Positions 3,220-21,888 of a stretch of 64,000 nucleotides of DNA are shown here, in pieces (within the stretch, counting starts at the first letter, position 1; every line of letters starts with the position of its first letter). The notes beneath the pieces were generated by a model. It had not been told where the DNA came from. It worked only from the letters and a program-made list of their open reading frames with translations, and ran no database searches. A program made the position numbers and the translations under genes. Origin of the DNA: Rhodobacteraceae bacterium IMCC1335 (GTDB lineage Bacteria > Pseudomonadota > Alphaproteobacteria > Rhodobacterales > Rhodobacteraceae); contig CP046864.1 of NCBI GenBank assembly GCA_039640495.1, forward strand, positions 2,715,001 through 2,779,000, written 5' to 3'.

Positions 3220-4749
3220 ATGAAGGAGACCAAGAGAACCATCAAAGTCAGCGAACACATTCGACTGGATACAAGGCCTGGCAGTGCAAAGTGGCAAGCA
3301 CGGGTTAAACTGGCTGATGGCTCTTGGCATAGATTTTCGACCAAGACAGAAAGCATAGAACGCGCCACAGAAGTCGCGATGAAGTTTTTCTACACATCTG
3401 AAGATCGTCTCAAAAACAACCTGCCGCAAAGCACACGCAAGTTTCGTCGAGTGGCAGAATTTGCACGAGACAGGATGCAAGAAGAACTACGCTCTGGCAG
3501 CGGTCACATCGTCTACAAAGATTACATCACTGCCCTTGATAAGTATCTCATTCCGTTCTTCGGTTCATATGATGTAGCCAATATCAATGCCAAAGCTCTG
3601 GTGGACTTTGGCAAGTGGCGCACAGAACAGCTGGGACGCAAAGCGCATCACAGCACCATCAACACACACAACACGGCATTGAACCGTGTATTAGATGAAG
3701 CGGAACAGCGTGGGTGGATCACACATGCCATTCGACCCAAGCCCATCAATGACGGTATCAAGACCGAAAGCCGTGGCAGTTTTACCAAAGAAGAATACAA
3801 AACTATCTATGAGGCACTGCGGACGTTTCATAAGGCGTCTGACAATCCCAATACTCAGGCCACGCGTGAAGTGCTTAGGAACTACGTGCTGGTTCTTGCC
3901 AACACCGGCATGCGGCATGGAACTGAGGCTTTGAACCTCAAGTGGAAAAACCTGCTGTGGATCAAAGAAGAGGATCAGACCTATCTTGGGCTGTTTGTGG
4001 CAGGCAAGACGGGTCAGCGGCCCCTGATTGCGCGGGATCGCGCTATAAGGCCCCTTGAGCGCCAATTAGAGCTCAATCCCAATCTCAAAGGCAAAACGCT
4101 GGATGAAGTAATTGAAAGCAAATGCGAAGACTATGTATTTGTCACCCGCTATGGCGAGCGGGCAGCGCGGCCCAATCTCTCGCGCAACTTTGAAACGCTG
4201 CTTAAATCTCTCAAAATCGTTTATGGCGCCGATGGTAAAAAGCGAACGCTTTACAGCTGGCGGCATTTCTACGCCACATTAGATCTTCAACGCGGCATCA
4301 GCACCCACGCTCTCAGCAGGCAGATGGGCAACAGCACCGGCGTGTTGGACCGTTTCTACTCAAAGCTGTCGCCATTCATGAACCCAGGACTGCATTCAGG
4401 GCGTGATCAGCAAGAACAGCGTAACGCAGCAAAGACCGCCACAGAGCCGCAGCAAGCGACAACAAAAGCCGAGGGCGACCGAGAGCTGCAAGAAGCGCCA
4501 GTTGCCAATCAAACAGTGCCGGCACAAGCCGCAGGCACTTCAGATCAGCCCGCTGCCCCTAAAACATCAGCGCATGAGAAAGCTTTCGATCTCTTTGATG
4601 TTGGCAAGCTCTCAGAAAAAGCCCTGCTGATTACTGTTGGAGCGGAGCGCAGTGGGTTTGAACTTGCCGAAGACCTACGCTTGCGCACGCTCACAGCTTT
4701 TGAAGACGGACGCCTGTCAGAGGATGCAATGATAAAACTGCTGAGTTAA
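3220..4749 (+). CDS. tyrosine integrase of element E1 (long form, 509 aa)
   Basis: Site-specific tyrosine recombinase expected to integrate and excise the element at tRNA-Cys. An N-terminal arm-binding and core-binding portion (to about residue 180) is followed by the catalytic domain: GMRHGTE near 230 (first Arg), SWRHFYAT near 345 and the nucleophile in DRFYSK near 377. Unlike ordinary integrases it continues with a Q/A/T-rich linker (about 395-445) and a conserved 60-residue acidic/Leu-rich tail. It lies 246 bases downstream of the tRNA fragment and ends four bases into the convergent recombinase gene. The copy at 46540 is over 90% identical except in the linker. Confidence 0.93.
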   Translation: MKETKRTIKVSEHIRLDTRPGSAKWQARVKLADGSWHRFSTKTESIERATEVAMKFFYTSEDRLKNNLPQSTRKFRRVAEFARDRMQEELRSGSGHIVYKDYITALDKYLIPFFGSYDVANINAKALVDFGKWRTEQLGRKAHHSTINTHNTALNRVLDEAEQRGWITHAIRPKPINDGIKTESRGSFTKEEYKTIYEALRTFHKASDNPNTQATREVLRNYVLVLANTGMRHGTEALNLKWKNLLWIKEEDQTYLGLFVAGKTGQRPLIARDRAIRPLERQLELNPNLKGKTLDEVIESKCEDYVFVTRYGERAARPNLSRNFETLLKSLKIVYGADGKKRTLYSWRHFYATLDLQRGISTHALSRQMGNSTGVLDRFYSKLSPFMNPGLHSGRDQQEQRNAAKTATEPQQATTKAEGDRELQEAPVANQTVPAQAAGTSDQPAAPKTSAHEKAFDLFDVGKLSEKALLITVGAERSGFELAEDLRLRTLTAFEDGRLSEDAMIKLLS

Positions 4750-5312
4750 AGCAGCTCCACCGCCTCTTTCATCTGGTCTGCGTTTACATCGATATATCTT
4801 TGTGTGGTGGAGATATGAGAATGCCCCGCAAGTGCAGCCAGCAAGCGCACACCCACTCCCTTGTTTGCCAATCTGGTAATATAGGTTCTGCGACCTGAAT
4901 GGCTTGAGGCATCTTTAAAGCCGCAGTTTTTCAAAATGTCCAAAAACAGCTGACACATTGTGTTTGGTGAGAAGTGCCCGCCTTTTTGGCTCTCAAACAA
5001 AGGACGCTCTAAATTGCTAAAGTTTTTATCCAGGCCATAGTCGTCCAATGCTTTTGCGAGACGTTTGTTGATAAACACGCTGCGCCGCTGCCCACCCTTG
5101 GTTTGGTCGCTCTCAAGCGTAAACTGTTCACGCACTCGACCGTCGGCGTCAAACACGTCCCCCAACTTGAGCGCTGCAATTTCTTTAGCACGAAGCCCGG
5201 CAAAAAAGCTCACCATAAAAATTGCCGTGTCACGATTGGCGTGTCGTCTTGTGCGACAGTAGTGCAGAACTTTGCGAAACTGGGCTTCATTCAGTGTCTG
5301 TGCATGTCTCAT
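4746..5312 (-). CDS. minimal tyrosine recombinase (188 aa), E1
   Basis: A catalytic-domain-only tyrosine recombinase, the size of FimB/FimE-type enzymes and lacking an N-terminal SAM-like core-binding domain. All catalytic residues are visible: Arg41 (GLRAKE), Lys72 (QTKGG), His138/Arg141 (HSGRR), His164 (GHSHI) and Tyr173 (QRYID). It converges on int with a four-base overlap, so the two enzymes form a fixed unit in E1. Its upstream region is a dyad-rich block shared with E3. A second role, such as excision, cargo exchange or DNA inversion, is inference; no inverted segment was seen. Confidence 0.9.
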   Translation of the reverse strand: MRHAQTLNEAQFRKVLHYCRTRRHANRDTAIFMVSFFAGLRAKEIAALKLGDVFDADGRVREQFTLESDQTKGGQRRSVFINKRLAKALDDYGLDKNFSNLERPLFESQKGGHFSPNTMCQLFLDILKNCGFKDASSHSGRRTYITRLANKGVGVRLLAALAGHSHISTTQRYIDVNADQMKEAVELL

Positions 5313-5628
5313 GGCGTAATACCCTCAAATCTCATCTTCTCGCTATAAACACTATAAAGTCTGAGGTTTGGGTTGGGCGACCGGTTTCTGTCCCTCAAAT
5401 TACTTTATTTTAAAAGGCCAATTCGGCCAAAATCTCATGTTTTGTTTGGATTAAATACAAATCGTGAGATTTGATTTTGACGCAACTTGAGGCGCCGCTG
5501 CATACATCAATAAAATCAAAAACTTACGCGATAATCTCATGAAATATAGATAACATGAGATTATGGACGCTGTCGTCCAGCTCATCCGGGCACCCACACA
5601 GCATTGAACTTATGTTCAAATAATCATA
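5313..5628. promoter_or_regulatory. conserved dyad-rich control region upstream of the minimal recombinase, E1
   Basis: This non-coding block is conserved with 49517-49830 although the DNA beyond it differs completely. It contains GCTATAAACACTATAAAGTC near the recombinase start (related sequence in E2), a GGCC-AATTC-GGCC hairpin, the loose dyad AAAATCTCAT (5429) / CGTGAGATTT (5463), and a perfect dyad TAATCTCATG / CATGAGATTA at 5532-5563. Then comes a GGACG-CTGT-CGTCC hairpin. It should contain the recombinase promoter; recombinase sites or an origin are possible. Confidence 0.65.
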
Positions 5629-5657
5629 GATGGCACAGGATACTTAAGGTTAAAATA

Positions 5658-6008
5658 ATGAGGCCCCAAATGCAGAAGCTTCGCAAAGCAGTTTTCCCCG
5701 TCGCAGGGTTTGGTACAAGGTTTTTGCCCGCGACCAAAGCCATGCCCAAAGAGCTACTGCCTATCGTGGACAAACCTCTGATCCAGTATGCGGCTGAGGA
5801 AGCGATTGCTGCGGGCATTGATACGCTTATTCTGCGCAATCAACCCGCAGGAGCGGGTGGGGAAATCCAACTGGCAGATGCCATCAACACACAGGCCGCG
5901 AAAGATGCAGTGGAAGCCGTCACGCTCAATGGACGCCGCTTTGATTGTGGTAGTGTACAGGGTTATTTGGATGCCATCATGCATGTGGCTGATCGTAGAA
6001 CGCGCTGA
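5658..6008 (+). pseudogene. galU: UTP-glucose-1-phosphate uridylyltransferase with large internal deletion
   Basis: The frame stays open for about 116 codons but joins two separated parts of GalU. The N terminus ([31 protein letters not shown]) is joined directly to the distal [12 protein letters not shown] and GRRFDCGS segments, losing roughly half the enzyme, including much of the sugar-binding core. It starts just after the conserved control region, so it is the first cargo gene of E1. It cannot encode a working UDP-glucose pyrophosphorylase. Confidence 0.85.
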
Positions 6009-6941: not shown

Positions 6942-7673
6942 CTAACCAGAAATATCTGCAAACAGATCACCATAACGCTTTTTGAATAAGCGCAGCGCTG
7001 GATCAAATGATCCACTGAGTTCACAAAGCGTAAACACATGTGCATCTGCAATGCCCTTGTTTTGCAGCGCATTGTCGAGAATACTGGGCAGTCGTTTTTG
7101 GATATTTTCCATTTGCTCGCGGTTATAGTGCTGTTGTGAGAGAAACCTCGCAAACTTGAGCCATGGCATAACAGGGTCTAGGTCTTGTACAATTTGCGCA
7201 TAAGAATGCCGCAACATCGTATCTGTCATGCCATCAACAGTAAAATTATCAAATCCCGTTGTTAAAAAACAGACTAAGAGACCATCGTATACCATCTCAA
7301 ATTCTAGATCTGAATGTCCTGTGAGCGCGTAATCAACTTGGTCCATGAGGCTGCTTGAGAACTGCGCACGCAAGATGTTTTCAATCTGACTAGGTAGATG
7401 AATGCGCACCCCGACACGCGCCACATAATGGTCATATTCTTTATGCTTTAAATATGCGGCTTCAATGGGAACGAGATCGCAATCAAATTGAAAATGCTGA
7501 GGCGTTGGTGCGACTTCATAGCCTAGAATTTGGCTCTCTTCTTGATCAGATAAAGATGCAATCTGGTTAAGATCAGTGTGGATACCAATTTCAGTATCAC
7601 ACAGACCTGCTAAGCATTGCACGATTTCTACAATGCAAGCCTCAAAAGCCTTTCTGTCTGAATTATGTTCCAT
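6942..7673 (-). CDS. unknown protein, last gene of the clamp-loader-like operon
   Basis: A 243-residue soluble protein of unknown function, no recognised motif, acidic N-terminal half. Its ATG overlaps the stop of the preceding gene (TGATG), so it is translationally coupled to it; this decides the start at 7673. It is the fourth and last gene of a minus-strand operon (9963 to 6942) that includes an RFC-like ATPase. A role as partner or effector of that ATPase is inferred from coupling only. Confidence 0.75.
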   Translation of the reverse strand: MEHNSDRKAFEACIVEIVQCLAGLCDTEIGIHTDLNQIASLSDQEESQILGYEVAPTPQHFQFDCDLVPIEAAYLKHKEYDHYVARVGVRIHLPSQIENILRAQFSSSLMDQVDYALTGHSDLEFEMVYDGLLVCFLTTGFDNFTVDGMTDTMLRHSYAQIVQDLDPVMPWLKFARFLSQQHYNREQMENIQKRLPSILDNALQNKGIADAHVFTLCELSGSFDPALRLFKKRYGDLFADISG

Positions 7674-8404
7674 CACGCGTTCAGCTTTGCTTCACAAAGA
7701 CACCGAATAATATCGCGCTTTACCGGATACTGAAACTTGAAGAGCTTTTTGTAAAACGCCAGTGCTTCCCCATTCTTACGCCTACCATACTCTGGCTGTT
7801 TGGCATACCTGAGCTCGCTTTTATAGAGCTTCAGAAACTCTGCATGATATTCGTCGCGCAACTCATGCAATAGATTGTAGTCCGGCTTCAGTTCTAAAAG
7901 TTGATCAATAAAGCACAGGTTTTGTGCCCATTCCTTATAGCGGTCAGTGATACTGTCGGGCAATGCGAGCATCAGCATGAGTGCACGTTTGCTACCCGTA
8001 TCTTGCACTCCTTTTGGCAAAGTAAGTTTTTCATGTGGAAGTACGGGTGTGAAGCCGGCTTCAATTTGGCGCAATTTTACATGAATTAAATTGCTCTTTT
8101 GATTGCTGGGGAATTTATACCCCCAGAAGCGATTGTAATGCCTTCGCACGGCTGGGTGTCCAGGGGAAGGATTTCTAGAGTATCCGTCTAATAGGAAGTT
8201 GTGATGGAGACTCGACTCGAGAGCTAGATTTTCCTGCTCATTTTTGTGCATTAATAAACCGCGCACACGATCAAAAACGTCAGTGTGTCGTAGTGCGCGA
8301 ACCTTTACATCAAATCCACACTGATCGAGAAACCATAAGAAATCAGTTTGTTCAGGCGACATCTCCAGCTCGTAGAGACCTTTTTCGTCAAATAAATCTT
8401 TCAT
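7673..8404 (-). CDS. unknown protein coupled to the RFC-like ATPase
   Basis: A 243-residue protein starting MKDLFDEKG at 8404, preceded by a GGGAGGG ribosome site and sharing a TGATG overlap with the ATPase stop; this decides against a longer start at 8464. Rich in charged and aromatic residues and mostly alpha-helical by appearance (for example YKEWAQNLCFIDQLLELKPDY), with no signal peptide or membrane segment. Not recognised. The tight coupling on both sides points to a multiprotein complex made in fixed ratios. Confidence 0.75.
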   Translation of the reverse strand: MKDLFDEKGLYELEMSPEQTDFLWFLDQCGFDVKVRALRHTDVFDRVRGLLMHKNEQENLALESSLHHNFLLDGYSRNPSPGHPAVRRHYNRFWGYKFPSNQKSNLIHVKLRQIEAGFTPVLPHEKLTLPKGVQDTGSKRALMLMLALPDSITDRYKEWAQNLCFIDQLLELKPDYNLLHELRDEYHAEFLKLYKSELRYAKQPEYGRRKNGEALAFYKKLFKFQYPVKRDIIRCLCEAKLNA

Positions 8405-9084
8405 CAGAGTGCCCTCCCTGAAGAATGTGATGTGATTGGCGCCGGTGACTGTGCAGTGCGCCATCCGATCACGGTCTCCTCCAACAAATCGATCAAATCT
8501 CGAGCACTGCCTTTAAAACTCTGCAGCATGAGTGCAACGTCTTGAGTGGATGGCGACATGCCTTCGTCTTCTAGAATAGCTTTTGCACGAGGCACCCAGT
8601 CTTGGTTTGTTGGTGGGGTAAGATCTACAACGCGAAACCTGCTTAGGATGGCACCGAGTATCCGCGATTTGTGGTTGGTGGTGGCAATGAAGCGAATGTA
8701 GGAGCGCTTTGCGTCCATAAAATCGCGAAACAAGGGTTGCTGCGTGCGAAGATCTAGCGTGTCGATTTCATTGATCACCACAAGAGCTTTATCTGAGTTG
8801 CCAAAGAGCTGGAAATTAGTCTCTGCCATAATTTGTGACTGCAGGTCTTTCCCTGAACTTCCCCCATTGAATTCCCAGGTCATGTTCTGGATGTTTTTGG
8901 TTTTGAAGTATGTCTGGGCAATGACACGCGCGGCTTCCGTCTTTCCAGCGCCAGGTGGGCCCACGAGTAATAGGGGCTTTGAGGGTATAGCAGTACAGTA
9001 TTGCTGTATGATGCCTGCGTTGAGCGGATCGGCAATAACGAGATCCTCAAAAGTTGATGGAAGATGTTTGAGATCAAAAGACAT
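8404..9084 (-). CDS. AAA+ ATPase resembling an RFC/clamp-loader subunit
   Basis: A 226-residue AAA+ protein. It has GPPGAGKT (Walker A, 42-49), VVINEID (Walker B, about 102-108), ATTNH (sensor 1, 134-138) and an LSRF arginine-finger-like box at 147-150, in the order seen in RFC small subunits and phage T4 gp44. The Walker B aspartate is replaced by asparagine (NEID), as also occurs in some eukaryotic RFC subunits. The DNA-binding collar domain is short or missing. I chose 9084 because GGAGG sits just before it. It is the second gene of a four-gene operon; whether it loads a clamp, remodels a partner or serves defence is unknown. Confidence 0.8.
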   Translation of the reverse strand: MSFDLKHLPSTFEDLVIADPLNAGIIQQYCTAIPSKPLLLVGPPGAGKTEAARVIAQTYFKTKNIQNMTWEFNGGSSGKDLQSQIMAETNFQLFGNSDKALVVINEIDTLDLRTQQPLFRDFMDAKRSYIRFIATTNHKSRILGAILSRFRVVDLTPPTNQDWVPRAKAILEDEGMSPSTQDVALMLQSFKGSARDLIDLLEETVIGWRTAQSPAPITSHSSGRAL

Positions 9085-9144
9085 GTTTGCCTCCATGAGA
9101 AAAATGGAAAAGGGCGACCTTGAAGCCGCCCGTTGAAATTTAAT

Positions 9145-9963
9145 TTAGCCATAATGTGGAGCTGTCGCGCCATTTGTGCGTATCGCTGTTCCATTGATCG
9201 AGGCATTCGGCATTGAACTCACAGTGATCATTTTGGAGGTAAATTCGCGGACATCGCGTGCACGTCGTTCTGCAAGATCACCAGCATCAACCTGCGCTTT
9301 GCTATCCTGGGCACGTTGATCCAGATCTTTGCCGGAAGATACTAGGACTGCGTCAATGACACCTGCTTCGTTGCAACCGTAGACAATTGTACCTGTGCCA
9401 TCATCGTGACAGCGCACAAGAGCAACCGCATAATCTTCTTCATAGTCTGTATTTGGTTGAATGAAGGTAGGAAGCTCAAATGTGCTGACCCCGACCTGGA
9501 CCTCTGCCAGGCCATCAAGCGCTAGCTTTTTATAATCATCCTTGCTCATTGTGCTGGCTTTTTGTGCCTTAGGAACACGGCGCACCTCTTCAATGCCGCC
9601 ACATTCTTGCACATAGCTGGTGAAGCTTTGATCTGGACCTTTCATGTCATGGGCGATCGCAATCACGCGGGCGTAAGAGTCCTCACGCCGACCTGCTTTA
9701 CCAAAGACATAGCGAATGACCTTCAGTGCTAAGCTGGTATTTGCCTGAATTTTTAGATCCAAATCTGTGAGCAGTGAGGCAAAGGCACGACGCTTGCCTA
9801 CTTCGGCCTTCAACTCAGAATAAAGTGCGTAGATTTGCTCCAAGATTGCATAGAGCTCAGTTGTGGCGGCACGCATTGTGCCTTCTTCCCAGACCACGCG
9901 CGCGGCGGACATTTGCTCGAGGCGCGTATGGATGTCGTGTTTAATTTGAGATTGAACTGACAT
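9145..9963 (-). CDS. unknown protein, first gene of the RFC-like operon
   Basis: A 272-residue soluble protein with AAGGA eight bases before the start. The N-terminal third is helical (RLEQMSAARVVWEEGTMRAA) and the rest mixed, with an acidic central segment. No catalytic motif recognised. It lies 60 bases before the ATPase gene and heads the operon, whose promoter should lie in the AT-rich divergent gap 9964-10173. Unknown function. Confidence 0.75.
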   Translation of the reverse strand: MSVQSQIKHDIHTRLEQMSAARVVWEEGTMRAATTELYAILEQIYALYSELKAEVGKRRAFASLLTDLDLKIQANTSLALKVIRYVFGKAGRREDSYARVIAIAHDMKGPDQSFTSYVQECGGIEEVRRVPKAQKASTMSKDDYKKLALDGLAEVQVGVSTFELPTFIQPNTDYEEDYAVALVRCHDDGTGTIVYGCNEAGVIDAVLVSSGKDLDQRAQDSKAQVDAGDLAERRARDVREFTSKMITVSSMPNASINGTAIRTNGATAPHYG

Positions 9964-10173: not shown

Positions 10174-10941
10174 ATGGTCTACGACGCGACCATTGAGCTG
10201 CAATCGCCACTGAGCTTTATGACAGCTCCGCCAAATATAGACGATTTAAAAGGCACGAGATTCCGTGAGCCCAGAAATTCGCCCTATAAAGATGCACCTG
10301 CCTTCATGGCCTCGCTTTATTACTGGTGGTGGGCTTTCTTACGGCGCAACACCGCATACAAACGCACATGCCGCCAAAGTGGCAATGGAAGACTGGGGTG
10401 GCTTTATAATGATTTTGGGAATGTTTTTGGCAATGACTTCTTATCTTGGTGGCGAAGTCATCAATTGCTCTTTGCAGAACAGAATAAAGCAATGCCAGAA
10501 GAAGCAGGCATTGGCCTGAACTACTGGCTTGATCCTCGCAAACCCTTCAATCAGATCCACGAAGAGACTAAAGCACTGCACTTACGCGCACATTCACTTT
10601 TAAAAAATAATGAATCTACGCGTGCTTCCTCAGCACGTTACCCAATCTATAAAAATGTCTCTTCACACACACTGTACAAAACACTGACACTCTGGGATCT
10701 GCACCTGTATTATCCCGATATGTCAAAATATGACTTAGGTGTAAAAGCGGGGCTTAAGCCTAATCTTATGCCTGAGACCAAATATGGTGAACGGCGGACC
10801 AAACAGGCGATGCAGGTCAAAGCACACAATCACCGTGCGCGCACAAGCATTGCCAATCAGACCAGTCGATATCTACGCACAGCGCGGCAGTATATTGAGA
10901 ATGTCGGCAAGGGTGAGTTTCCAAAATTTGTGGGCCGTTAA
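10174..10941 (+). CDS. element backbone protein of the 'WW' family, E1 member
   Basis: A 255-residue protein with an AAGGAG ribosome site. It has an aromatic cluster (YYWWWAFLRRNTAYKR, about 49-64), then NDFGN and FLSWWR (near 90), and a basic Lys/Arg-rich C terminus ending ENVGKGEFP. The same succession (aromatic cluster, Y, FG, F..WW, basic tail, G-F-P) is present in the E2 proteins at 42077 and 44731, so the three form a divergent family. The motif resembles the W-E-F-L-R-R-N-x-x-Y signature of some alphaproteobacterial mobile-element regulators. A DNA-binding regulatory role is a guess. Confidence 0.75.
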   Translation: MVYDATIELQSPLSFMTAPPNIDDLKGTRFREPRNSPYKDAPAFMASLYYWWWAFLRRNTAYKRTCRQSGNGRLGWLYNDFGNVFGNDFLSWWRSHQLLFAEQNKAMPEEAGIGLNYWLDPRKPFNQIHEETKALHLRAHSLLKNNESTRASSARYPIYKNVSSHTLYKTLTLWDLHLYYPDMSKYDLGVKAGLKPNLMPETKYGERRTKQAMQVKAHNHRARTSIANQTSRYLRTARQYIENVGKGEFPKFVGR

Positions 10942-10990
10942 AACAAGTATAAACAACCTTAGGGTGCATTTTATCCACAGGTTCGCTAAT

Positions 10991-11047
10991 CAAACACTGT
11001 GTTTGCAACAGTACTGTTTGCCCACTTTGCTCAAACAGTACTGTTTG
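10991..11047. promoter_or_regulatory. cluster of three CAAACA...TGTTTG palindromes
   Basis: Three dyads in 57 bases: CAAACAC-T-GTGTTTG at 10991-11005, AACAGTACTGTT at 11007-11018 and the perfect 16-bp CAAACAGTACTGTTTG at 11032-11047. A fourth half-site (AGTGTTTGCCC) lies near 11081. Such phased palindromes are typical operators; the downstream gene at 11208 and the upstream WW-family gene are the candidate targets. The binding protein is unknown. Confidence 0.65.
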
Positions 11048-11207
11048 GTCACTTGTAAATAAATGCCATGTTAACATGCAGTGTTTGCCCGCACATCAAT
11101 AAGTAGAACACATCACACCTTTAAGGTGTATTCCTCATAAAAACAGATGTTTAAGTGATAAATAACTGTGAGGCAGGTCCTCCTGCCCAACAGTTGAGGA
11201 ATTTTAG

Positions 11208-11534: not shown

Positions 11535-11662
11535 CAGCGCTCGAAATGGGTCTTGCAGCTAAAAAATTTGCACTGCGGTTTTTTCTAGGGAAGTACTTAT
11601 CAGTTCTGGGTGGTGATTTTGCGCCACCCCAGTATGTAAACCTAGGAGCTGCTCATGGATGA
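11531..11662 (+). CDS. 43-residue coupled small protein
   Basis: Its ATG overlaps the stop of the preceding gene (ATGA) and its last codons overlap the start of the next gene (ATG at 11655), so three genes are chained. The product (MTALEMGLAAKKFALRFF...) has an amphipathic basic N-terminal helix and no cysteines. Not recognised; the main support is the overlap at both ends. It could merely be a coupling leader. Confidence 0.5.
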   Translation: MTALEMGLAAKKFALRFFLGKYLSVLGGDFAPPQYVNLGAAHG

Positions 11663-12020
11663 TCGTGAAGAAATGCGCCGCCTCATTGACATGATCGAAA
11701 AGTCTGCAGGATCCAATACGATTGAGCAGGCAGTCGATGATCTAAAGACTTTTGCGAATACGGCCAGCTTCTTGGCAAACAAGCTCGATAGCAGGCTGAA
11801 GGCAGGCGAGGTGAAGAAGAAAAAGCCTGCAAAGTCTGGCAAGGGGATAGGGCTATCGAAACCAGCGCCACCTCCCATTCCAAAGTCCCGTAACACACCT
11901 AAACCGCAGGACTCTGTGAGTGGTTTGCCTCAAGCTACCAGCACCAGCATCTCACAAGCCGACTATGACAAGGTGAAGCCTGTGCGTCCTATTGGAGCAT
12001 TGAGCGCAAACGAGGGTTGA
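11655..12020 (+). CDS. hypothetical protein with basic proline-rich centre
   Basis: A 121-residue protein. An N-terminal helical region (REEMRRLIDMIEKSAG, then DLKTFANTASFLANKL) is followed by a Lys/Pro-rich disordered stretch and an S/T-rich tail. Third gene of the 11208-12020 chain. No family recognised; the composition suggests a helix-mediated oligomer with a flexible nucleic-acid- or protein-binding tail. Confidence 0.65.
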   Translation: MDDREEMRRLIDMIEKSAGSNTIEQAVDDLKTFANTASFLANKLDSRLKAGEVKKKKPAKSGKGIGLSKPAPPPIPKSRNTPKPQDSVSGLPQATSTSISQADYDKVKPVRPIGALSANEG

Positions 12021-12149: not shown

Positions 12150-13073
12150 TTATTCATCGTCCGAAGGCTCATCTGATGAGTCATCGTCTTCAGAATGCAC
12201 ACTGTCTGAGCTTGTACCTGGATCTTGACCTTCTCCGCTGACGGCCTCGTCCATGCTCACGGTATTCACCACAAGCTCAAAGGTATCGAGAATATCAGGA
12301 TGGTTCTGTGTGAGGTAATCTTTCACGGTTGGTGTGGAGATCAGTTTGCTTAAATACCCGCGCGCGACGACTAAATTAAGGAGGTCTGAGCCGTAATTGG
12401 CCTCTGCATCTTTGTACTTGGTTTGCACCTGGCTCATTTCTTTTTCCAATTTAACGATCTTTTCTAACGGATCTCCTTGAGGAATGTCTGGTTTGGAGGG
12501 CGCCGTGTCTGTGCGCTGTTCTGGCGGCGTTGCCTTAAGTAGGGCTTCAGCGTGGGGTCCTGTGATTTTATCTGCGGCGATCATCAACTCGACGGCCTCC
12601 ACTTGGCGCGCAGCTTTCATTTTGCGCAGGAAACGTGTGACCTCTGGGTTGAACTGTTGGTCTTGTAAGAGCTCAACGGCCTGGGGGCACACACCATGCA
12701 ACAAGTTCACACGCGTGTTGATGGCTGAGAGATTGACATTAAACGCGCGTGCTAAGCGCTCTTTGCTGACACCTTTGTCGATTGCGCGACGCAACATATA
12801 GTGCTCCTGCACCGTAGACAGTCTATTTATGCGATGGTTGTAGGTGTAGGTCTCAAAATCTTTGGCGATAAGACAAGGGGCCTGATCTTCGCCCAATTCC
12901 TTGAGTGCGAGCACGCGTAGGTTCCCATCGAGTAGGAGGAAGGTTTCGTTTTGGTCATCTGTTGGGATTATAGAAAGCGGCTCAATCAATCCAATTTCTT
13001 TGATGGAAGAGAGGATCTGTTTGAATTTGCGCGTGGTCATCACACCGTCAGGTACTTTCTTGCTTGGCATCAA
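12150..13073 (-). CDS. ParB/RepB-like partition protein, 5' end possibly truncated
   Basis: The protein has a ParB-like N domain (FLLLDGNLRVLALKEL), a central helix-turn-helix (SKERLARAFNVNLSAINTRV near 100-120) and a RepB-type C-terminal half, then a very acidic tail. Such proteins occur singly or in pairs on alphaproteobacterial transposons and islands. The frame stays open about 17 codons upstream of the TTG at 13073 (reading ENLPQLVTIEH) to a stop without a good start. The true N terminus may have been lost when the metal block arrived at about 13150-13209. No partner ParA is present. Confidence 0.8.
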   Translation of the reverse strand: MMPSKKVPDGVMTTRKFKQILSSIKEIGLIEPLSIIPTDDQNETFLLLDGNLRVLALKELGEDQAPCLIAKDFETYTYNHRINRLSTVQEHYMLRRAIDKGVSKERLARAFNVNLSAINTRVNLLHGVCPQAVELLQDQQFNPEVTRFLRKMKAARQVEAVELMIAADKITGPHAEALLKATPPEQRTDTAPSKPDIPQGDPLEKIVKLEKEMSQVQTKYKDAEANYGSDLLNLVVARGYLSKLISTPTVKDYLTQNHPDILDTFELVVNTVSMDEAVSGEGQDPGTSSDSVHSEDDDSSDEPSDDE

Positions 13074-13209: not shown

Positions 13210-15555
13210 ATGCCACACGTTGCTGCTCATCATGATCACGATCATGCCGCTGCTTCTTCTTCAGAAACAGGTACAAGTTGCTGCGGCGGTGATGCTATCG
13301 CGCCAACGCAAGTCAGCGCCTCCGACGGGCGAAGTTTTCACGTCAGCGGTTTGGACTGCGCGGAAGAGGTCTCGATCCTCAACAAAGTCGTCGGTCCAGA
13401 GGTCGGAGGGGCGGAATTTCTGGCCTTTGACGTCATTAACGCCAGAATGACCGTTCTTGAAGGTGGCACGTCAGTGTCCTCGGACAACATCATCAAGGCG
13501 GTCGCATCAACAGGCATGACGGCCAAACCGTGGGATGTCGAGGACGCCAGCGCTGATCAGGCTGCACATCTGAAGAAACAAAAGCTGTTCACGATGCTGA
13601 GCGGAGGCTTTTGGGCGGCGGGGTTCATTTACCACCTTGTTGAAACTGGCATCGGCGGGGCCATCGGCATTTTTTCCGGCCATGGTGAAGCCGCGATGCC
13701 AATTGCGGAAATCGCCTTGTTCGCTGGCGCTATTCTATTAGGTGTGTGGCTGGTCGCACCTAAAGCATGGTCGTCTGCGCGTCGGATCTCTCCTGATATG
13801 AACCTGTTGATGGTGGTTGCCGTTGCCGGTGCAATCGCACTTGGAGAGTTCTTTGAGGCCGCGACTGTTGCGTTTTTCTTCTCACTTTCACTGTATCTTG
13901 AAAGCTGGAGCGTCGGGCGCGCACGCAATGCTGTCTCGGCACTTCTCGACCTCGCGCCTCCTACGGCGCGGATTATTTACGATGATGGGTCTGAGGCTGA
14001 TATGCCTGCAGCGGCCGTTGCTATTGGAACCAAGTTCATCGTGCGCGGTGGTGACCGCATTCCTCTCGACGGAGAAGTTGTCGACGGGGCGGGAGCCGTC
14101 GACCAGGCCCCCATTACAGGTGAAAGCGCCTTGGTGCCAAAGGAGGCAGGCGACGATGTCTACGCGGGCACCATAAATGGTGAGGGCACGTTGACTGTAC
14201 GGGCATCGAAGGCCGCGTCTGACACGGTTCTGTCCAAGATCATTCGCATGGTTGGCGATGCGCATTCGCGTCGCGCGGAGGTCGAACAATGGGTGACAAA
14301 GTTCGCCCGCATTTACACGCCAGTTGTGATGGTGCTTGCCATTCTCATTGCTGTAATCCCCCCACTTGTCGCGGGCGGCGATTGGGGCTTTTGGTTCTAC
14401 AACGCACTGGTTCTTTTGGTCATCGCCTGCCCTTGTGCTTTGGTGATCTCGACTCCAGTTTCTATTGTCGCGGCCCTCGCCGCCTCGGCGCGCAACGGTG
14501 TGCTGATCAAGGGCGGAGCCTATGTCGAAGCCCCGGGTCGCACGACAGCACTGGCCATGGACAAGACCGGTACGATCACCATGAGTGAGCCCGAGGTTGC
14601 GGCCATTTATCCGCTTGGTGACACAAGCGAAGCCGAACTTATGGCACGGGCCGTTGCCCTCGAAGCGCGCTCGTCACATCCTCTGGCACGGGCGATCCTT
14701 GGCCGTGCAGAGCGAGACGGAATAAAAATTGTCGCCGCCGAGGATACCCGAACCGTTCCAGGACGCGGCCTTGAGGGTCAAATGGATGGTCAGTCCATAT
14801 GGCTCGGCTCCGATCGGTTTGCCGAGGAAAAGGGCCTTGGCGGGGATATCCCGGCTGATCTACGCAATCAGATCGAAGGCGCTGGAAGCACGCTTGTGGC
14901 GATCGGTGACGCGAAAGGCGTCAGCGGCGTTCTCGAACTGCGTGACCGGATCCGGCCAGATGCCAAGGGCATTATCGCGCGCTTGCACGCTCAAGGCGTT
15001 AAAAAGATCATCATGCTAACGGGTGACAACGCGGCCACCGCAAGTGCAGTGGCTGCCGAGGTCGGCATCGACGAGGTGCGTGCAGAACTCTTGCCCGAGG
15101 ACAAGGTCACAGCGATCGAGGAGCTGGTCGCACAATATAGCACCGTCGCAATGATCGGGGACGGAGTGAATGACGCACCGGCAATGGCGCGTGCGCATTA
15201 CGGCATCGCAATGGGCGCAGTTGGGTCGGACGCTGCGATTGAAACGGCGGACATCGCGCTCATGACCGATGATATCGGCAAAGTTCCATGGCTGATCGGG
15301 CATTCGCGCCGGACCATGTCGATCATCAAACAGAACATCGGCCTGTCTTTAGCAACCAAGGCAGTCTTCGTAGTCGCGACCGCCTTTGGCATGGCGTCCA
15401 TGTGGGGCGCGATCGCGGCAGACGTCGGGGTTTCGCTCCTCGTTGTCGCGAATGCCTTGCGGTTGTTACGAGCGCGCGACAACGATCAAGGACCGCGCGG
15501 CGGAGAGCAAGTTGGCGAAGAATTGGCAAAGGGCGCGCTGGCTCACGGCCATTGA
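13210..15555 (+). CDS. Zn2+/Cd2+/Pb2+-exporting P1B-type ATPase
   Basis: A 781-residue heavy-metal export ATPase of the inner membrane (ZntA/CadA class). A His-rich N terminus (HHDHDH) and a CCGG pair are followed by a degenerate HMA domain reading GLDCAEE rather than GMxCxxC, several membrane helices, the CPC metal-transport motif (about 406), DKTGTIT phosphorylation site (about 450), SSHPLA and GDGVNDAP (about 650). First gene of the metal block. The MerR regulator at 20808 is the likely controller of metal response, though it is 5 kb away. Confidence 0.93.
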   Translation: MPHVAAHHDHDHAAASSSETGTSCCGGDAIAPTQVSASDGRSFHVSGLDCAEEVSILNKVVGPEVGGAEFLAFDVINARMTVLEGGTSVSSDNIIKAVASTGMTAKPWDVEDASADQAAHLKKQKLFTMLSGGFWAAGFIYHLVETGIGGAIGIFSGHGEAAMPIAEIALFAGAILLGVWLVAPKAWSSARRISPDMNLLMVVAVAGAIALGEFFEAATVAFFFSLSLYLESWSVGRARNAVSALLDLAPPTARIIYDDGSEADMPAAAVAIGTKFIVRGGDRIPLDGEVVDGAGAVDQAPITGESALVPKEAGDDVYAGTINGEGTLTVRASKAASDTVLSKIIRMVGDAHSRRAEVEQWVTKFARIYTPVVMVLAILIAVIPPLVAGGDWGFWFYNALVLLVIACPCALVISTPVSIVAALAASARNGVLIKGGAYVEAPGRTTALAMDKTGTITMSEPEVAAIYPLGDTSEAELMARAVALEARSSHPLARAILGRAERDGIKIVAAEDTRTVPGRGLEGQMDGQSIWLGSDRFAEEKGLGGDIPADLRNQIEGAGSTLVAIGDAKGVSGVLELRDRIRPDAKGIIARLHAQGVKKIIMLTGDNAATASAVAAEVGIDEVRAELLPEDKVTAIEELVAQYSTVAMIGDGVNDAPAMARAHYGIAMGAVGSDAAIETADIALMTDDIGKVPWLIGHSRRTMSIIKQNIGLSLATKAVFVVATAFGMASMWGAIAADVGVSLLVVANALRLLRARDNDQGPRGGEQVGEELAKGALAHGH

Positions 15556-15621
15556 TTGGCGGAAGGCAACGCTGTATCAGATAGGCAAAACGAACCTCCG
15601 AAGAAAAGGCATTGGGCAGTA

Positions 15622-16131
15622 ATGATAACAAAATTACCGAGACGGCTGTTCCTATCTGGTGCGGTCGCGACATTCTTGGCCGGATGCGCCAACAAATTCA
15701 GTTCGTACACTGGCCCTGACGTGACACGCCTGCGCCTCTACAAATCTCAACGACTGCTCGTTCTCGATGGAGCGCAGGGCGTGCTGCGCTCTTACCCGGT
15801 CGGGCTTGGTTTTGCCCCGGAAGGACACAAGCAATTCGAGGGCGACGGACGCACGCCCGAAGGAACCTATACCATCGACCGCCGAAATCCCGAGAGCCTG
15901 TTTCATCTCTCAATTGGCATTTCGTACCCGAATGCGGCCGACCGCGCTTTTGCGGCAGCTCAGGGCCAGTCTCCAGGGGGTGATATCTTTATCCACGGTG
16001 GCCCGAGGCGGGGGATCGATCCAACGAATAAGCAGGACTGGACCGCCGGATGTATTGCGGTCAGTGATCGGCAGATTGAAGAGATTTATGCAATGGTGCG
16101 CGATGGCACGCCCATCGACATTTATGCCTGA
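15622..16131 (+). CDS. L,D-transpeptidase lipoprotein (YkuD family)
   Basis: A 169-residue exported protein. The start at 15622 gives MITKLPRRLFLSG with a lipobox (FLAGC), so a membrane-anchored lipoprotein is expected. The YkuD catalytic HGG...TAGCIAVSD motif with its cysteine is near residue 135-145. It could form 3-3 peptidoglycan cross-links or attach outer-membrane proteins. It overlaps the convergent lspA 3' end by ten bases; lspA encodes the signal peptidase that would process it. Confidence 0.88.
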   Translation: MITKLPRRLFLSGAVATFLAGCANKFSSYTGPDVTRLRLYKSQRLLVLDGAQGVLRSYPVGLGFAPEGHKQFEGDGRTPEGTYTIDRRNPESLFHLSIGISYPNAADRAFAAAQGQSPGGDIFIHGGPRRGIDPTNKQDWTAGCIAVSDRQIEEIYAMVRDGTPIDIYA

Positions 16132-16589
16132 CGACGTGCGTCCCACACCGGATACAACAAAAGTACGCCAACGCCACATACGACAAAAACATCGGCCAAG
16201 TTGAAGGCCGGCCAATACAGGCCCGCGATGTGGAAGCTCAGAAAGTCAGTAACGGCTTGAAATCGGAAGCGATCTACAACGTTTCCGAGTGCGCCGCCAA
16301 TGATCGCACCAAGTGCAACAGCTTCGATACGATTGTCGCTGCGAAAAAGCAGCACACCGAGAACGGCACATATCAAAAGCGCCAATGCCGACAGTCCCCA
16401 CCAAGGCATGCCCCCGAACATCCCGAAGCTAACCCCATCATTTTGAACATACACAAGGTCGAATATGGGTAAGATTTGAATGCCGGTGGCAAACGAGGAT
16501 GCGTTGTCCATGACAAAGAACTTCGTGACTTGATCCACGAAAAGAGCGATCAACACGGTAGTCAGGCCGGGAAGGATGAATATCTTCAT
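16122..16589 (-). CDS. lspA: lipoprotein signal peptidase
   Basis: A 155-residue inner-membrane aspartyl protease with four hydrophobic segments. The two catalytic motifs are present: GNVVDR (about 103) and FNLADV (about 130). It cleaves prolipoproteins after lipidation. LspA copies often accompany metal-resistance genes on mobile elements (with CadA/CzcD), which fits this setting; the housekeeping copy should be elsewhere. It sits seven bases from the ZIP gene, at the end of the minus-strand operon. Confidence 0.93.
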   Translation of the reverse strand: MKIFILPGLTTVLIALFVDQVTKFFVMDNASSFATGIQILPIFDLVYVQNDGVSFGMFGGMPWWGLSALALLICAVLGVLLFRSDNRIEAVALGAIIGGALGNVVDRFRFQAVTDFLSFHIAGLYWPAFNLADVFVVCGVGVLLLYPVWDARRQA

Positions 16590-16595
16590 CTTTTT

Positions 16596-17378
16596 TTATC
16601 CGAGCCAGACGTCCAAAAACAGCATGATGACCAAGCCGATCGCAAGGCCAAGTGTTGCCTTGTTCTGATGACCGCTTCGGTGGGTTTCAGGAATGATCTC
16701 GTGACTGATAACGTAGAGCATCGCACCTGCGGCAAACGCCAAACCCCAAGGAAGAAGCGGTTCGGAGATCGTGATGATCCCCGCACCCAAAAGCCCTCCA
16801 ATGGGTTCAACCATGCCAGTTAATGCGGCGATCCCCCAAGCCCGGACTTTCGAATACCCTTCGCCGAGCAGTGACACCGCGACGGCCAGACCTTCGGGCG
16901 CGTTCTGCAGCCCGATCCCGATCGCAAGCGGCATACCACCTGACACACCGTCCGCGCCGAAGCCGACGCCAACAGCGAGCCCTTCAGGAAAATTGTGGAT
17001 CGTGATGGCGATAATGAACAACCACACCCGTCGAAGGGATGCTGCCTCCGGCCCTTCGCGACCTGTGCTGAAATGCTCATGCGGGAGTTTCTCGTTCATG
17101 AGTGCCACGGCACCCATCCCGAGGAGGATCGCAATACACACAATAGCTGCCGGTGCGGCCTCGTTCACATACCGTAGTTCAGCAGCATCAAGTGCCGGTA
17201 TAATCAAGGAAAAGAACGATGCCGCCAGCATCACGCCTGCTGCGAAACCAAGTGAGAGGTCTCGGGTAGCGCGAGACGGTACGCGACCAAAAAGCACGGG
17301 TATTGCGCCAATGGCGGTCATTGAACCTGCGGCAAGACTACCCAGAAATCCGAGCATGATGGGGGAGAGAGTGTCCAA
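16596..17378 (-). CDS. ZIP-family metal transporter
   Basis: A 260-residue membrane protein of the ZIP family, close to the ZupT/GufA group. It has HNFPEG and QNAPEG metal-site motifs in helices 4 and 5 and ISHEIIPETH near residue 227. ZIP proteins move Zn2+ and other divalent metals towards the cytoplasm, the opposite direction to the ATPase at 13210, so the block may manage uptake and export together. Part of the minus-strand operon. Confidence 0.9.
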   Translation of the reverse strand: MDTLSPIMLGFLGSLAAGSMTAIGAIPVLFGRVPSRATRDLSLGFAAGVMLAASFFSLIIPALDAAELRYVNEAAPAAIVCIAILLGMGAVALMNEKLPHEHFSTGREGPEAASLRRVWLFIIAITIHNFPEGLAVGVGFGADGVSGGMPLAIGIGLQNAPEGLAVAVSLLGEGYSKVRAWGIAALTGMVEPIGGLLGAGIITISEPLLPWGLAFAAGAMLYVISHEIIPETHRSGHQNKATLGLAIGLVIMLFLDVWLG

Positions 17379-17404
17379 ATTTATATCTTTCGTTGTAAAT
17401 CTCT

Positions 17405-17854
17405 TCAGTCGCCAGAATAGCTTGAGAAGACTTCTGTCGACCCGTCGTTGTTGATGAGAAACACGTCGTAGGCCTCACGCCAGCGGCTCTGATCCATACC
17501 AGGCGAGCCAAGCGGCATGTCCGGCACCGCGAGGCCTACTGCGTCTGGTCTTTCGCTGAGTAACCTGCGTATATCACCCGCTGGGACATGGCCTTCGATC
17601 ACATATCCGTCGATGAGCCCCGTGTGACAGGACACCATACGTTGCGGAACGCCATTATCGAGTTTGAAGCGTACAAAAAGGCCTGCAAACATATCCTCAC
17701 CTGTGGGTTCAAAGCCGTTTTCTTCGAGGTGTTTCATCCACGCTAGGCAGCACCCGCAGCCATTCGTCTTAATAACTTCAATTTGGGTCGCTTGGGCGAT
17801 GGCCTGAGCGGCGAAGCTCATTGAAAAAAGGGTTGCGAGCGTAAAAAGCTTCAT
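17405..17854 (-). CDS. periplasmic DUF411 metal-binding protein
   Basis: A 149-residue exported protein: signal peptide ending near AQAIAQA, then the DUF411 hallmark NGCGCCLAW (CGCC near residue 33-36) and a second metal-ligand region (MVSCHTG). DUF411 proteins bind copper in the periplasm and accompany copper-resistance genes. The start overlaps the SCO1 gene stop (ATGA), so it is coupled to it. Confidence 0.88.
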   Translation of the reverse strand: MKLFTLATLFSMSFAAQAIAQATQIEVIKTNGCGCCLAWMKHLEENGFEPTGEDMFAGLFVRFKLDNGVPQRMVSCHTGLIDGYVIEGHVPAGDIRRLLSERPDAVGLAVPDMPLGSPGMDQSRWREAYDVFLINNDGSTEVFSSYSGD

Positions 17855-18474
17855 GAGGATTGTTCTCCGGTTCTTGCAAGGACGCGGCGGATTTTTGGCA
17901 CCGCGAATTCCCGTTGTTCATGGTAGTCTATTGTGCCGGAAAACTGCCCCTCAGCATCAAAGAGAAAGACGCTTGCCGTATGGTTCATCGTATAGTCGCC
18001 GTCCGTGGCGACCTTTTCATAGCGCGCACGGAAGCCAGCGGCAGCGCGCGCTGTCTCTTCAAGCGTCCCGTTCCAGCCTTGGATAGCAGGGTGAAAATAA
18101 TTGACATATTCCGCCATGGCGTCCACGGTATCGCGCTCCGGATCGACCGTGATGAACACGACGTTCATGTCCGCAACATCATCTCCAAGGTCGTCAAGCC
18201 AGCCAGAAATATCCGACAATGTGGTTGGGCAAACATCGGGGCAGTATGTGAAGCCAAAAAACACCATGGATGGATTGCCCAGAAGCGACGCGGGTCCGAC
18301 GGTTGCACCGCCTTGATCGGTCATCTGAAAGTCCATCTGGGTGAGCGGCAAGGGTCGCTGAGCTACAGGTTCAGGCGCGCCGGGACCGTTCACTCGCCAC
18401 CAGCCAATAAATAGCGTGAGCGCAAGCGCCCCGCTTATTGCGGCACCATAAGTGAAAAGGGTTCTTCGGTTCAT
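17851..18474 (-). CDS. SCO1/SenC copper chaperone (first copy in block)
   Basis: A 207-residue membrane-anchored thioredoxin-fold protein with an N-terminal hydrophobic helix, then FGFTYCPDVCPTTL (CxxxC copper site) and a conserved distal His (MNHTASVFLFD). It delivers copper to cytochrome oxidase CuA or keeps its cysteines reduced. Linked by four-base overlaps to DUF411 downstream and PCuAC upstream. A second, divergent SCO1 at 20039 heads the same operon. Confidence 0.92.
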   Translation of the reverse strand: MNRRTLFTYGAAISGALALTLFIGWWRVNGPGAPEPVAQRPLPLTQMDFQMTDQGGATVGPASLLGNPSMVFFGFTYCPDVCPTTLSDISGWLDDLGDDVADMNVVFITVDPERDTVDAMAEYVNYFHPAIQGWNGTLEETARAAAGFRARYEKVATDGDYTMNHTASVFLFDAEGQFSGTIDYHEQREFAVPKIRRVLARTGEQSS

Positions 18475-18935
18475 CAGCCTTCCGGACCGAGCGCCGCAAT
18501 GCCAAAAATTGGAACGTCAACAGTCAGTGTCCCGCCATCGGCAAAGTTTAAGGTTAGCTGAAACGTCTCGCCTTCGATCATCTTGGCTTGCAACCGCATC
18601 AGCATCGCATGCATGCCGCCTGGCTCCAGCGAGACACTCTCGCCCGGAGAAATGTTGATTTCACCGACAGGGCCCATGGAACTGACACCATTTGAATCAG
18701 TCGTGGTTTCGTGGATGTCCGGCATCATGGCCAATGGGGTTTCCAGCCCGACCAATGTCACCGGGTCAGTGCCCGTGTTGCGCAGGGTCATGTAGGCTAC
18801 GCCCGGACGGTTGGTACCGATAGACGCGCGGGCCCATGCGTCTTCGATCACAATGTCTTCCGAACCCGCAAGGGAAGCTGTAGGCAATCCGACCAGAATA
18901 CTGAATGCAAGGGCATGGAAGGTAGATTTTCTCAT
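18474..18935 (-). CDS. PCu(A)C periplasmic copper chaperone
   Basis: A 153-residue exported protein; the start at 18935 gives a clear signal peptide (MRKSTFHALAFSILVG...SLAGS). The copper site Met/His ligands appear as MMPDIHE and, distally, GGMHAMLMRL, the H(M)x10-Mx21-HxM arrangement of PCuAC. It hands Cu(I) to the CuA centre together with SCO1, encoded next door. A longer frame to 19040 would run back over the neighbouring gene and lacks a signal peptide. Confidence 0.9.
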   Translation of the reverse strand: MRKSTFHALAFSILVGLPTASLAGSEDIVIEDAWARASIGTNRPGVAYMTLRNTGTDPVTLVGLETPLAMMPDIHETTTDSNGVSSMGPVGEINISPGESVSLEPGGMHAMLMRLQAKMIEGETFQLTLNFADGGTLTVDVPIFGIAALGPEG

Positions 18936-18960
18936 AGGTTTGTTCCTGATAGTTTTCTGG

Positions 18961-19620
18961 TCATGATCCATTCGCCGAGACTTCCGCAGCCACGAGGGCG
19001 CGCAACTCATCTGCGCCGAAGGGATCAAGAGGTTTTCCATTTACGAAGAAGGTGGGTGTCTGGCGCACGCCAACCGCTTCCACATCGGCGCGATCTTGAT
19101 TGAGAACGCCAACGGTCTGAGGAGCCATCATCTGCGTTTGCGCGTTGTCAGCGTTAAGACCAGCTTGTTCAGCGATCGCAAGGATTAAACCGGGCGCGGG
19201 GGCACCATGGGAGGCCCACCGGGGCTGGAACTCAAGGAGTGCTTCGAGGACCGGCTCAAAAACGCCCTGCATGCGTGCCGCTTCGAGCACACGAATGGCC
19301 TGTTCTGAGGCTTCACCGTGGAAGGGGGTATATCTCAGCACGACGCGTACATCGCCGTCATGCTCGGCCAGTATGTCCTTCACAATCGGATGGAAGGCGC
19401 GGCAGGCTTCGCAAGCCGGATCGAAGAACTCGACTATAGTCACAGGGGCTTCTTCCGGACCAATGATTGGAGAGTAGGACCGGATTAGTGTTTCCGCGAT
19501 TTCCGGCTGGACTAGCTCAACCTGAACCACCGAGGCCGAGCGCGACTGAAACCAAACGGCGGCCGCAAAGACTGCAAGACCGACGAGAAGGACCGATAGA
19601 ACGATCGATTTGTTTTTCAT
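18961..19620 (-). CDS. DsbA-family thiol-disulfide oxidoreductase
   Basis: A 219-residue thioredoxin-fold protein anchored by an N-terminal helix. The active site is EFFDPACEACRAFHP (CEAC, about 71-74) and the cis-proline loop RQTPTFFVNG is near residue 187. Followed by DsbB-like and SCO1 genes with four-base overlaps upstream; together they can set the redox state of the copper chaperones' cysteines. Confidence 0.88.
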   Translation of the reverse strand: MKNKSIVLSVLLVGLAVFAAAVWFQSRSASVVQVELVQPEIAETLIRSYSPIIGPEEAPVTIVEFFDPACEACRAFHPIVKDILAEHDGDVRVVLRYTPFHGEASEQAIRVLEAARMQGVFEPVLEALLEFQPRWASHGAPAPGLILAIAEQAGLNADNAQTQMMAPQTVGVLNQDRADVEAVGVRQTPTFFVNGKPLDPFGADELRALVAAEVSANGS

Positions 19621-20635: not shown

Positions 20636-20773
20636 TGGTCGTATTACGCCCGATTCCGCCCATTTTTACAGCAGTCTAAATGTTCTAGCTGCTAGAGGTT
20701 CAAGCTATTTCTTGGCTAAGAAGCAGCCCTTCACGGACATGTGATTACAGTGCTGGCTTGCGCATGCCAATAG

Positions 20774-20794
20774 CTATAGCTACCAACACTATAG
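20774..20794. promoter_or_regulatory. possible MerR-type operator in the divergent promoter region
   Basis: Two CTATAG half-sites at 20774-20779 and 20789-20794 flank CTACCAACA just upstream of the merR ATG. MerR-family operators are dyads of this kind inside an over-long promoter spacer. Controlling both merR and the leftward copper operon is plausible but inferred. Confidence 0.4.
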
Positions 20795-20807
20795 ATATGG
20801 AGGTTGC

Positions 20808-21236: not shown

Positions 21237-21238
21237 TA

Positions 21239-21565: not shown

Positions 21566-21575
21566 AGTTAAGCCT

Positions 21576-21605: not shown

Positions 21606-21632
21606 TTACTCAAAGACGATTCGAGGAGATGT

Positions 21633-21867: not shown

Positions 21868-21888
21868 GATGCGGCTCCTTTTACGGAG

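Follow-up and report, generated by a model that had tools for sequence, protein, structure and literature searches.

Replication factor C (RFC) small subunits and the phage T4 loader protein gp44 carry Walker A and B, sensor 1, SRC arginine and sensor 2 motifs across domains 1 and 2, ahead of a collar. Among integrative elements, tRNA-targeting islands, including tycheposons, show tRNA-half repeats, a recombinase gene beside the attachment site (att), cargo and exact empty sites (PMC10872708, PMC10803314); PICMI phage satellites are small and defined by int, alpA and a primase (PMC10803314), and GInts and strand-biased circularizing elements (SEs) hold more than one tyrosine recombinase each (PMC5385486, PMC10214605), all as far as the accessible parts of these sources go. 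Here we describe a locus that shares features with each of these systems, in a 64,000-nucleotide stretch (the window) of the genome of Rhodobacteraceae bacterium IMCC1335 (contig CP046864.1, positions 2,715,001 to 2,779,000). Its minus strand at 6942-9963 encodes a protein termed g1, an ATPase of the RFC/gp44 clade (AAA) and two further proteins, g3 and g4. In contrast to RFC and gp44 loaders, AAA has no collar, lies in an integrative element with no clamp gene recognised beside it, and shows partial conservation of RFC box II and the SRC cysteine among the 33 family members compared. Judged by gene content, g1 and AAA belong to the backbone of this element, together with a long tyrosine recombinase (int), a short one (xer188), a protein termed YWWW and a DUF6641 protein.

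The g1-AAA elements share tRNA-half repeats, int beside att and cargo with tRNA-targeting islands, and one of them likewise has an exact empty site, yet they differ from the islands and tycheposons of the accessible descriptions in having their own backbone of g1-AAA, YWWW, xer188 and DUF6641, and in that many loci have no tRNA gene in the stretch analysed. Like PICMI they are small (about 10 kb where both ends were mapped) with no capsid genes recognised, whereas no significant AlpA or primase match, the defining traits in the accessible PICMI text, appeared among the proteins scanned, a set short of every open reading frame (ORF). No description of the g1-AAA/YWWW/xer188/DUF6641 backbone was found in the open-licence literature, a search that most subscription papers and bioRxiv preprints lie outside, and DUF6641, DUF6626 and DUF3768 had no mention found in open-licence papers. 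Thus, the tRNA-integrating kind of island is known, and its backbone with a collar-less clamp-loader ATPase is new as far as we have seen; an earlier note on this DNA likewise knew of no named system with this gene set.

The collar-less ATPase and its locus

The four ORFs run on the minus strand in the order g1 (9145-9963, 272 aa), AAA (8404-9084, 226 aa), g3 (7673-8404, 243 aa) and g4 (6942-7673, 243 aa). The ORF listing agrees with the earlier note on their coordinates, lengths and two TGATG overlaps, at 8406-8402 between AAA and g3 and at 7675-7671 between g3 and g4, while g1 and AAA do not overlap and are separated by a 60-nt gap with a hairpin inside. AAA is taken to start at the ATG at 9084, which has GGAGG a few bases 5′, and would be 230 aa long if the upstream ATG were used. 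The four genes appear to be real and under purifying selection, since the ratio of non-synonymous to synonymous substitution rates (dN/dS) is low among the copies in the window and at two other loci, L008 and L026 (loci are numbered L and genomes G throughout): the window copy gives 0.09-0.12 for g1, 0.05-0.08 for AAA, 0.10-0.11 for g3 and 0.30-0.39 for g4 against the other two, which give 0.08, 0.21, 0.10 and 0.32, respectively, against each other.

The assignment of AAA to the RFC/gp44-like ATPases, already proposed in the earlier note, is supported by profile comparisons. AAA matches phrog_168 in PHROGs (2.2e-25) and the RFC small subunit in NCBIfam (9.6e-17, far below the curated cutoff). 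A nine-member AAA profile searched against solved structures ranks the RFC small subunit 2chg first (1.9e-33), with T4 gp44 (1.1e-21), DnaX (2.5e-20) and RarA (2e-13) at lower ranks, and sequence identity to myophage gp44-type proteins is 25-28%. The alignment to phage gp44 by hhalign (E 2.6e-32) stops at column 214 of 315, and the solved-structure match stops at chain residue 207 of 319. The title of 2chg is "Replication Factor C domains 1 and 2", and the element ATPases match that extent and stop where the collar starts. AAA ORFs are 212-261 aa long, with a tail of 1-27 aa past the domain, and a collar is absent from 33 of 33. The earlier note had stated that the protein seems to lack much of the collar; the match stops after the lid, so the collar is gone altogether. 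AAA is thus predicted to be an RFC/gp44-clade AAA+ ATPase consisting of domains 1 and 2 only.

The catalytic motifs look intact, including the trans-acting arginine-finger position. The Walker A lysine, Walker B glutamate, sensor-1 asparagine, SRC-position arginine and sensor-2 arginine are each present in all 33 members. In the window, the Walker B motif reads VVINEID, in which the first aspartate is replaced by asparagine, as pointed out previously, and the catalytic glutamate is retained. This position holds D in 20 members, N in 11 and E in two; since residues mix here while the glutamate is invariant, the asparagine is best read as natural variation and gives no sign of a dead site.

The conserved g1-AAA unit

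Conservation was followed in two sets of loci. The first comprises 20 loci: the window, three other places in its own genome, nine loci on named contigs and seven from other genomes. They are not all independent: five (the window, L008, L019, L020 and L026) are near-identical copies of one another, only a remnant is left at L010, and L009 and L040 carry a broken g1. AAA or an AAA remnant lies directly 3′ of g1 on the same strand in 19 of the 20, the exception being L042. In contrast, g3 occurs in only four (L020 is cut by a contig end, and L019 stops inside AAA and is uninformative), and a search of 292 genomes of the order found g3 in the genome of the window only (1/292). A g4 gene or relative occurs in seven of the 20; the relatives directly behind AAA in L024 and L025 share 26-27% identity with g4, and a partial one in L022 shares 21%. 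All four genes stand together in three loci (the window, L008 and L026), so the four-gene set proposed in the earlier note does not hold and was rejected as a unit: the g1-AAA pair recurs elsewhere, but the full set does so only as near-identical copies. The conserved unit, as read from these loci, is g1 followed by AAA, usually with a hairpin between them; g3 and g4 are optional, and we regard them as accessory passengers of one lineage.

The second set is confined to one genus, with 38 loci in 22 genomes; these are 38 of 41 matches, the rest being L039, L042 and L038 (genomes G798 and G925). AAA lies 3′ of g1 in 23 of these loci and is absent from 15. Nine AAA-less loci encode proteins of 350-456 aa with long extensions, in which the match covers part of g1 only; L084, L086, L089 and L099, like L042, have a gene for a 204-221-aa protein 5′ of g1, and L085 and L105 have neither feature.

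No relationship of g1 to YWWW or g4 was seen in profile comparisons, a solved-structure search with g1, YWWW, g4 and g3 returned only matches with E >0.1, and g3 matched no family above chance in the family libraries searched. Sliding clamp and gp62 were considered as identities of g1 and rejected at profile level.

In the window, the hairpin that follows the g1 stop codon and precedes the start of AAA lies at 9112-9131 (minus strand; stem 8, loop 4; z -3.5). The g1-AAA gap spans 53-76 nt in the first set and folds better than shuffled sequences (z ≤-2) in 11 of 13 loci, the exceptions being L008 (z -1.48) and L039 (z +0.13); L040, with its broken g1, has a 12-nt gap and no hairpin. In the second set, where the stretch folded included the first AAA bases, z is ≤-2 in 14 of 23, and L082, L102 and L107 have no clear stem. 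The stem is kept while its sequence changes between lineages, and some stems end in a U run. The hairpin is probably a partial terminator or an RNA-stability hairpin that keeps g1 above AAA.

The two proteins also co-vary. Forty-nine loci entered this analysis, of which the 15 with all six core proteins were used and 34 left out; the alignments comprise 33 AAA and 43 g1 members. Patristic distances of g1 and AAA correlate with r 0.92 and a partial r of 0.73 (permutation p 0.001), the top value of 15 pairs. The partial correlation of AAA is 0.29 with int (p 0.092), 0.27 with xer188 (p 0.031) and -0.20 with YWWW; among other pairs, it is 0.44 for the neighbours YWWW and xer188, and 0.53 for xer188 and DUF6641.

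Backbone, insertion sites and cargo of the element

The usual companions of the pair are int, xer188 (188-194 aa, catalytic domain only), YWWW, mostly divergent from g1, and DUF6641; DUF6626, DUF3768 and a Lys/Pro-rich protein are frequent extras, and individual loci may lack any one of them. L106, the most compact locus, holds xer188, YWWW, g1, AAA, int, DUF6641 and one unscanned 131-aa ORF, and apart from that ORF its gene list names no replicase, helicase or primase. From this recurrence, g1-AAA is assigned to the backbone of an integrative element with int, xer188, YWWW and DUF6641, and the placement inside a mobile element given in the earlier note is borne out. In the window, the 509-aa int (3220-4749, plus strand) adjoins an att half-site and is followed by xer188 (4746-5312, minus strand). 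On the other side of the locus, the plus strand encodes the 255-aa core protein YWWW (10174-10941), divergent from g1, a DUF6626 protein (PF20331; 11208-11534, Pfam 1.1e-27) and the small Lys/Pro-rich backbone protein p121 (11655-12020), whose only PHROGs match, to an excisionase/regulator family, is non-significant (E 0.1). In int and xer188 the g1-AAA elements have two tyrosine recombinases, as do GInts and SEs, but the two usually lie apart and the backbone differs from those in the available descriptions. In GInts and SEs, the recombinases are reportedly in tandem with other small partners. No DDE transposase is among the named backbone genes, which do not cover every ORF; the recombinases are of the tyrosine type, with a serine recombinase in addition in L008 and L026.

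A RepB/ParB-like gene (12150-13073, minus strand) follows, with its start truncated relative to the L008 copy. At about 13.1 kb, similarity to L008 stops and GC content rises; because of this truncation, the window copy of the element may be damaged on the RepB/ParB side, while g1, AAA, YWWW, int and xer188 are open. L008 (12949-16523) and L026 (4239-7810) carry ParB- and RepB-like genes alongside a large serine recombinase, in the part of the element in which L009, L023 and L024 carry a gene that we take, with weak support, to be HUH-like from its motif. The L009 copy of the latter has a sub-threshold Pfam match (PF23343, E 0.042), PHROGs gave no support and the L041 copy had none from Pfam. 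Since one set replaces the other in sister elements, the sequences suggest that maintenance modules are exchanged between them.

The att sites in the window are copies of the 3′ half of a tRNA-Cys(gca) gene on the plus strand. Identical 45-bp copies lie at 2930-2974, at 23834-23878, the right end of the interval with g1-AAA, and at 46250-46294, the end of a second element, and a 41-bp copy with 95% identity lies at 52931-52971. The g1-AAA pair thus lies within one element, spanning 2930 to 23834, of a tandem array of several; an intact tRNA-Cys gene lies upstream in L008. The recombinase gene int adjoins att in the window (3220, beside 2930-2974) as well as in L041, L040, L028 and L087. Copies of tRNA halves of at least 37 bp occur in 10 of 50 stretches (tRNA-Pro, -Cys, -Met and -Phe), while 32 of 50 have no tRNA gene and six of 50 have a tRNA gene without a copy, which weighs against tRNA insertion as a general rule; these members either use other insertion sites or have ends beyond the stretch. 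The second case applies to L038 (G925), where the left tRNA-Met lies just outside the stretch and its half copy 26 kb further. An exact insertion is the 10,278-bp tRNA-Met element of L087 (1825-12102, equal to G1365:C2:248825-259102): its flanks abut to the base, leaving exact empty sites, in 10 of the 61 genomes compared from the genus, namely G1412, G1376, G1377, G846, G1388 and G1402, and, by right-flank matches of 40-44 bp only, G1361, G1392, G1390 and G1375. At least some of the elements therefore insert at tRNA genes, and our proposal on mechanism does not rest on the insertion site.

The rest of the window array and related loci gave several further observations. The second element (23834-46294), related to the first, contains int (24027-25220), large helicases at 25266-29885 (PDC-S37/Hhe type) and 30079-32913, an ExoI-like gene (38832-40196), xer191 (40364-40939), two YWWW-like genes (42056-42814 and 44731-45507) and a DUF6626-like gene (42818-43108), and no g1 or AAA was found in it by profile. 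A third, small element between two tRNA-Cys halves (46250-52971) contains int (46540-48069), xer188 (48950-49516) and, by eye, VapC-like, galE-like and small toxin-antitoxin-like genes. Upstream of the array, 37-bp tRNA-Cys 5′ halves spaced by about 1.4 kb (L030 14139-15579, L008 947-983) adjoin relBE-like genes, recognised by eye, and a 132-bp repeat, which recurs at window positions 10971-11102 and has palindromic AACAGTACTGTTTG arms. Elsewhere in the same genome, L009 (813-14000) holds two tandem int/xer188 sets at tRNA-Met, and in its inner set g1 is split by a frameshift and g3 and g4 are absent.

Cargo varies. Type II restriction-modification (RM) systems lie inside the tRNA-bounded elements L040 and L081; beside the backbone, with ends unmapped, are a type IIG system in L039, a type I RM system in L029 and a SIR2-like gene in L105, and a Schlafen-group-3-helicase-like gene lies near int of L038. 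The second window element holds PDC-S37/Hhe-type helicases. These defence-like genes were hand-picked by appearance, not drawn as a random sample of cargo, and no defence gene was recognised in some elements, such as L100 and L106. Searched against PADLOC, AAA gave matches in its P-loop region only, and g1, g3 and g4 gave none; a known defence protein was rejected for all four. In the same att interval as g1-AAA, a region of higher GC content (13210-22800) contains, by eye, heavy-metal P-type ATPase, lipoprotein signal peptidase-like, SCO/metal-chaperone-like and MerR-like genes. Between xer188 and g4, a truncated galU-looking gene (5604-6008) has 273-aa copies in L008 and L026, so this lineage may carry sugar-nucleotide genes as cargo.

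Possible roles of g1 and AAA

Our tentative preference, held at somewhat less than even confidence, is that g1 and the collar-less AAA together make up a module that remodels DNA at the expense of ATP, belongs to the backbone of an integrative element able to target tRNA genes and helps the excised element to replicate; element replication was one of the two roles raised in the earlier note. AAA would form a collar-less ring or spiral of the RFC kind, and g1 would guide it to element DNA or a protein target. After excision, ATP hydrolysis would serve to open the DNA or to bring in host replication proteins (helicase, clamp or polymerase), a host clamp being a possible partner, and the element circle would be copied before re-integration or passing on. 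The intercistronic hairpin would probably keep g1 more abundant than AAA throughout. The family, motifs, g1-AAA adjacency, co-variation, selection and site-specific insertion of some members are read directly from the sequences; g1-directed action of AAA and ATP-aided replication of the excised form are what we infer from them. Some relatives carry a RepB/ParB pair or the weakly supported HUH-like gene, in line with replication. A broader reading is more doubtful, namely that this clamp-loader-clade ATPase is the g1-directed motor of a previously undescribed group of tRNA-targeting, sometimes defence-carrying Pseudomonadota elements, which, having no helicase, primase or polymerase of their own, take over the host replication machinery.

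Several findings weigh against a replication role. No clamp or polymerase gene was recognised in the elements, where the comparison with clamp profiles covered g1. A g1 or distant g1 is present at the 15 of 38 loci without AAA, so AAA is not obligatory across the wider family. Adjacency alone can raise the co-variation of g1 with AAA, which was tested in only 15 of 49 loci. In L023, outside the 33 members, a cysteine replaces a Walker A glycine of AAA; its recombinase genes are broken too. The g1 profile matched neither gp45 nor gp62, in small alignments of four and five rows. Structure prediction, suggested in the earlier note as a check, was informative for AAA only: with AlphaFold2, g1 reached a predicted local distance difference test (pLDDT) score of 42 and gave no usable fold, while the weak AAA model (pLDDT 55) shows the AAA+ order of elements and three lid helices, and the chain ends past lid helix 194-212. 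Of the 50 Foldseek rows shown for this model, 49 are chains of clamp loaders or clamp unloaders and one is PCH-2; template modelling (TM) scores are at most 0.44, and the result counts as supportive only.

The main rival, which we consider unlikely, is that the pair controls site-specific recombination, with AAA as an assembly or disassembly ATPase for int and xer188, comparable to the part of IstB or TnsC with DDE transposases, and g1 as a DNA-binding adaptor or directionality factor. The constant companions of the pair are indeed two tyrosine recombinases and not replicases, the partial co-variation of AAA with xer188 is positive though weak (0.27, p 0.031), and AAA-type transposase helpers exist, as the accessible text on IS21 describes (PMC11208146). 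However, the values for xer188 (0.27) and int (0.29, p 0.092) are weak beside the 0.73 with g1. By its profile, AAA belongs to the RFC clade and not to the IstB/DnaC or TnsC type. Dependence on an AAA partner is not known for any tyrosine recombinase, which counts against recombination control. A further rival, which we consider improbable, makes AAA a genuine clamp loader subunit acting on the host beta clamp, to load it or unload it on element DNA, with g1 as the missing collar or second subunit, as gp62 is for gp44. The RFC/gp44 homology, in which the arginine finger and the sensors are retained, and a partner-then-loader gene order resembling phage gp45-gp44-gp62 would suit such a loader, but a canonical one is made less likely by the absence of a collar from all 33 AAA ORFs, by the lack of a recognised clamp gene and by the dissimilarity of g1 to gp62 and gp45 in those small alignments.

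The remaining readings are weaker. The four-gene operon as an anti-phage defence or plasmid-sensing module, akin to the suggestion in the earlier note that it might sense foreign DNA, is very improbable: some elements of the family do carry defence genes (L040, L081, L039, L029 and L105), but g1-AAA is backbone, found amid varied cargo, g3 and g4 are not conserved, and the four proteins have no PADLOC support beyond the P-loop region of AAA. That the genes survive in the element as a functionless remnant of T4-like phage replication is scarcely credible, despite the resemblance of AAA to myophage gp44-type proteins (25-28% identity), as the genes appear to be under purifying selection, the ATPase motifs are kept in 32-33 of 33 members, the association with g1 recurs in distant genomes and the AAA profile lies nearer to RFC than to gp44.

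The distribution of g1 is patchy. It was found in three of 385 genomes of the class, five of 398 of the phylum and one of 369 of a second class (the centre genome itself), but in 23 of the 61 genomes in the genus of G798, where the element family thus appears to be frequent. Matches on named contigs are mostly from Rhodobacteraceae or from genera placed in that family, with one from a Sphingomonadales metagenome-assembled genome. Searches of plasmids, phages and IMG/VR contigs turned up relatives of neither g1 nor g3, and no close relative of AAA, the IMG/VR scans for g1 and g3 being pattern-based and of limited reach, so surveys built on plasmid, phage and viral-contig collections could miss the family. 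If g1-AAA does drive replication of the excised element, as we tentatively prefer, host replication would be recruited with minimal means; should the pair control recombination instead, AAA would be, as far as is known, the first AAA+ partner of tyrosine recombinases.

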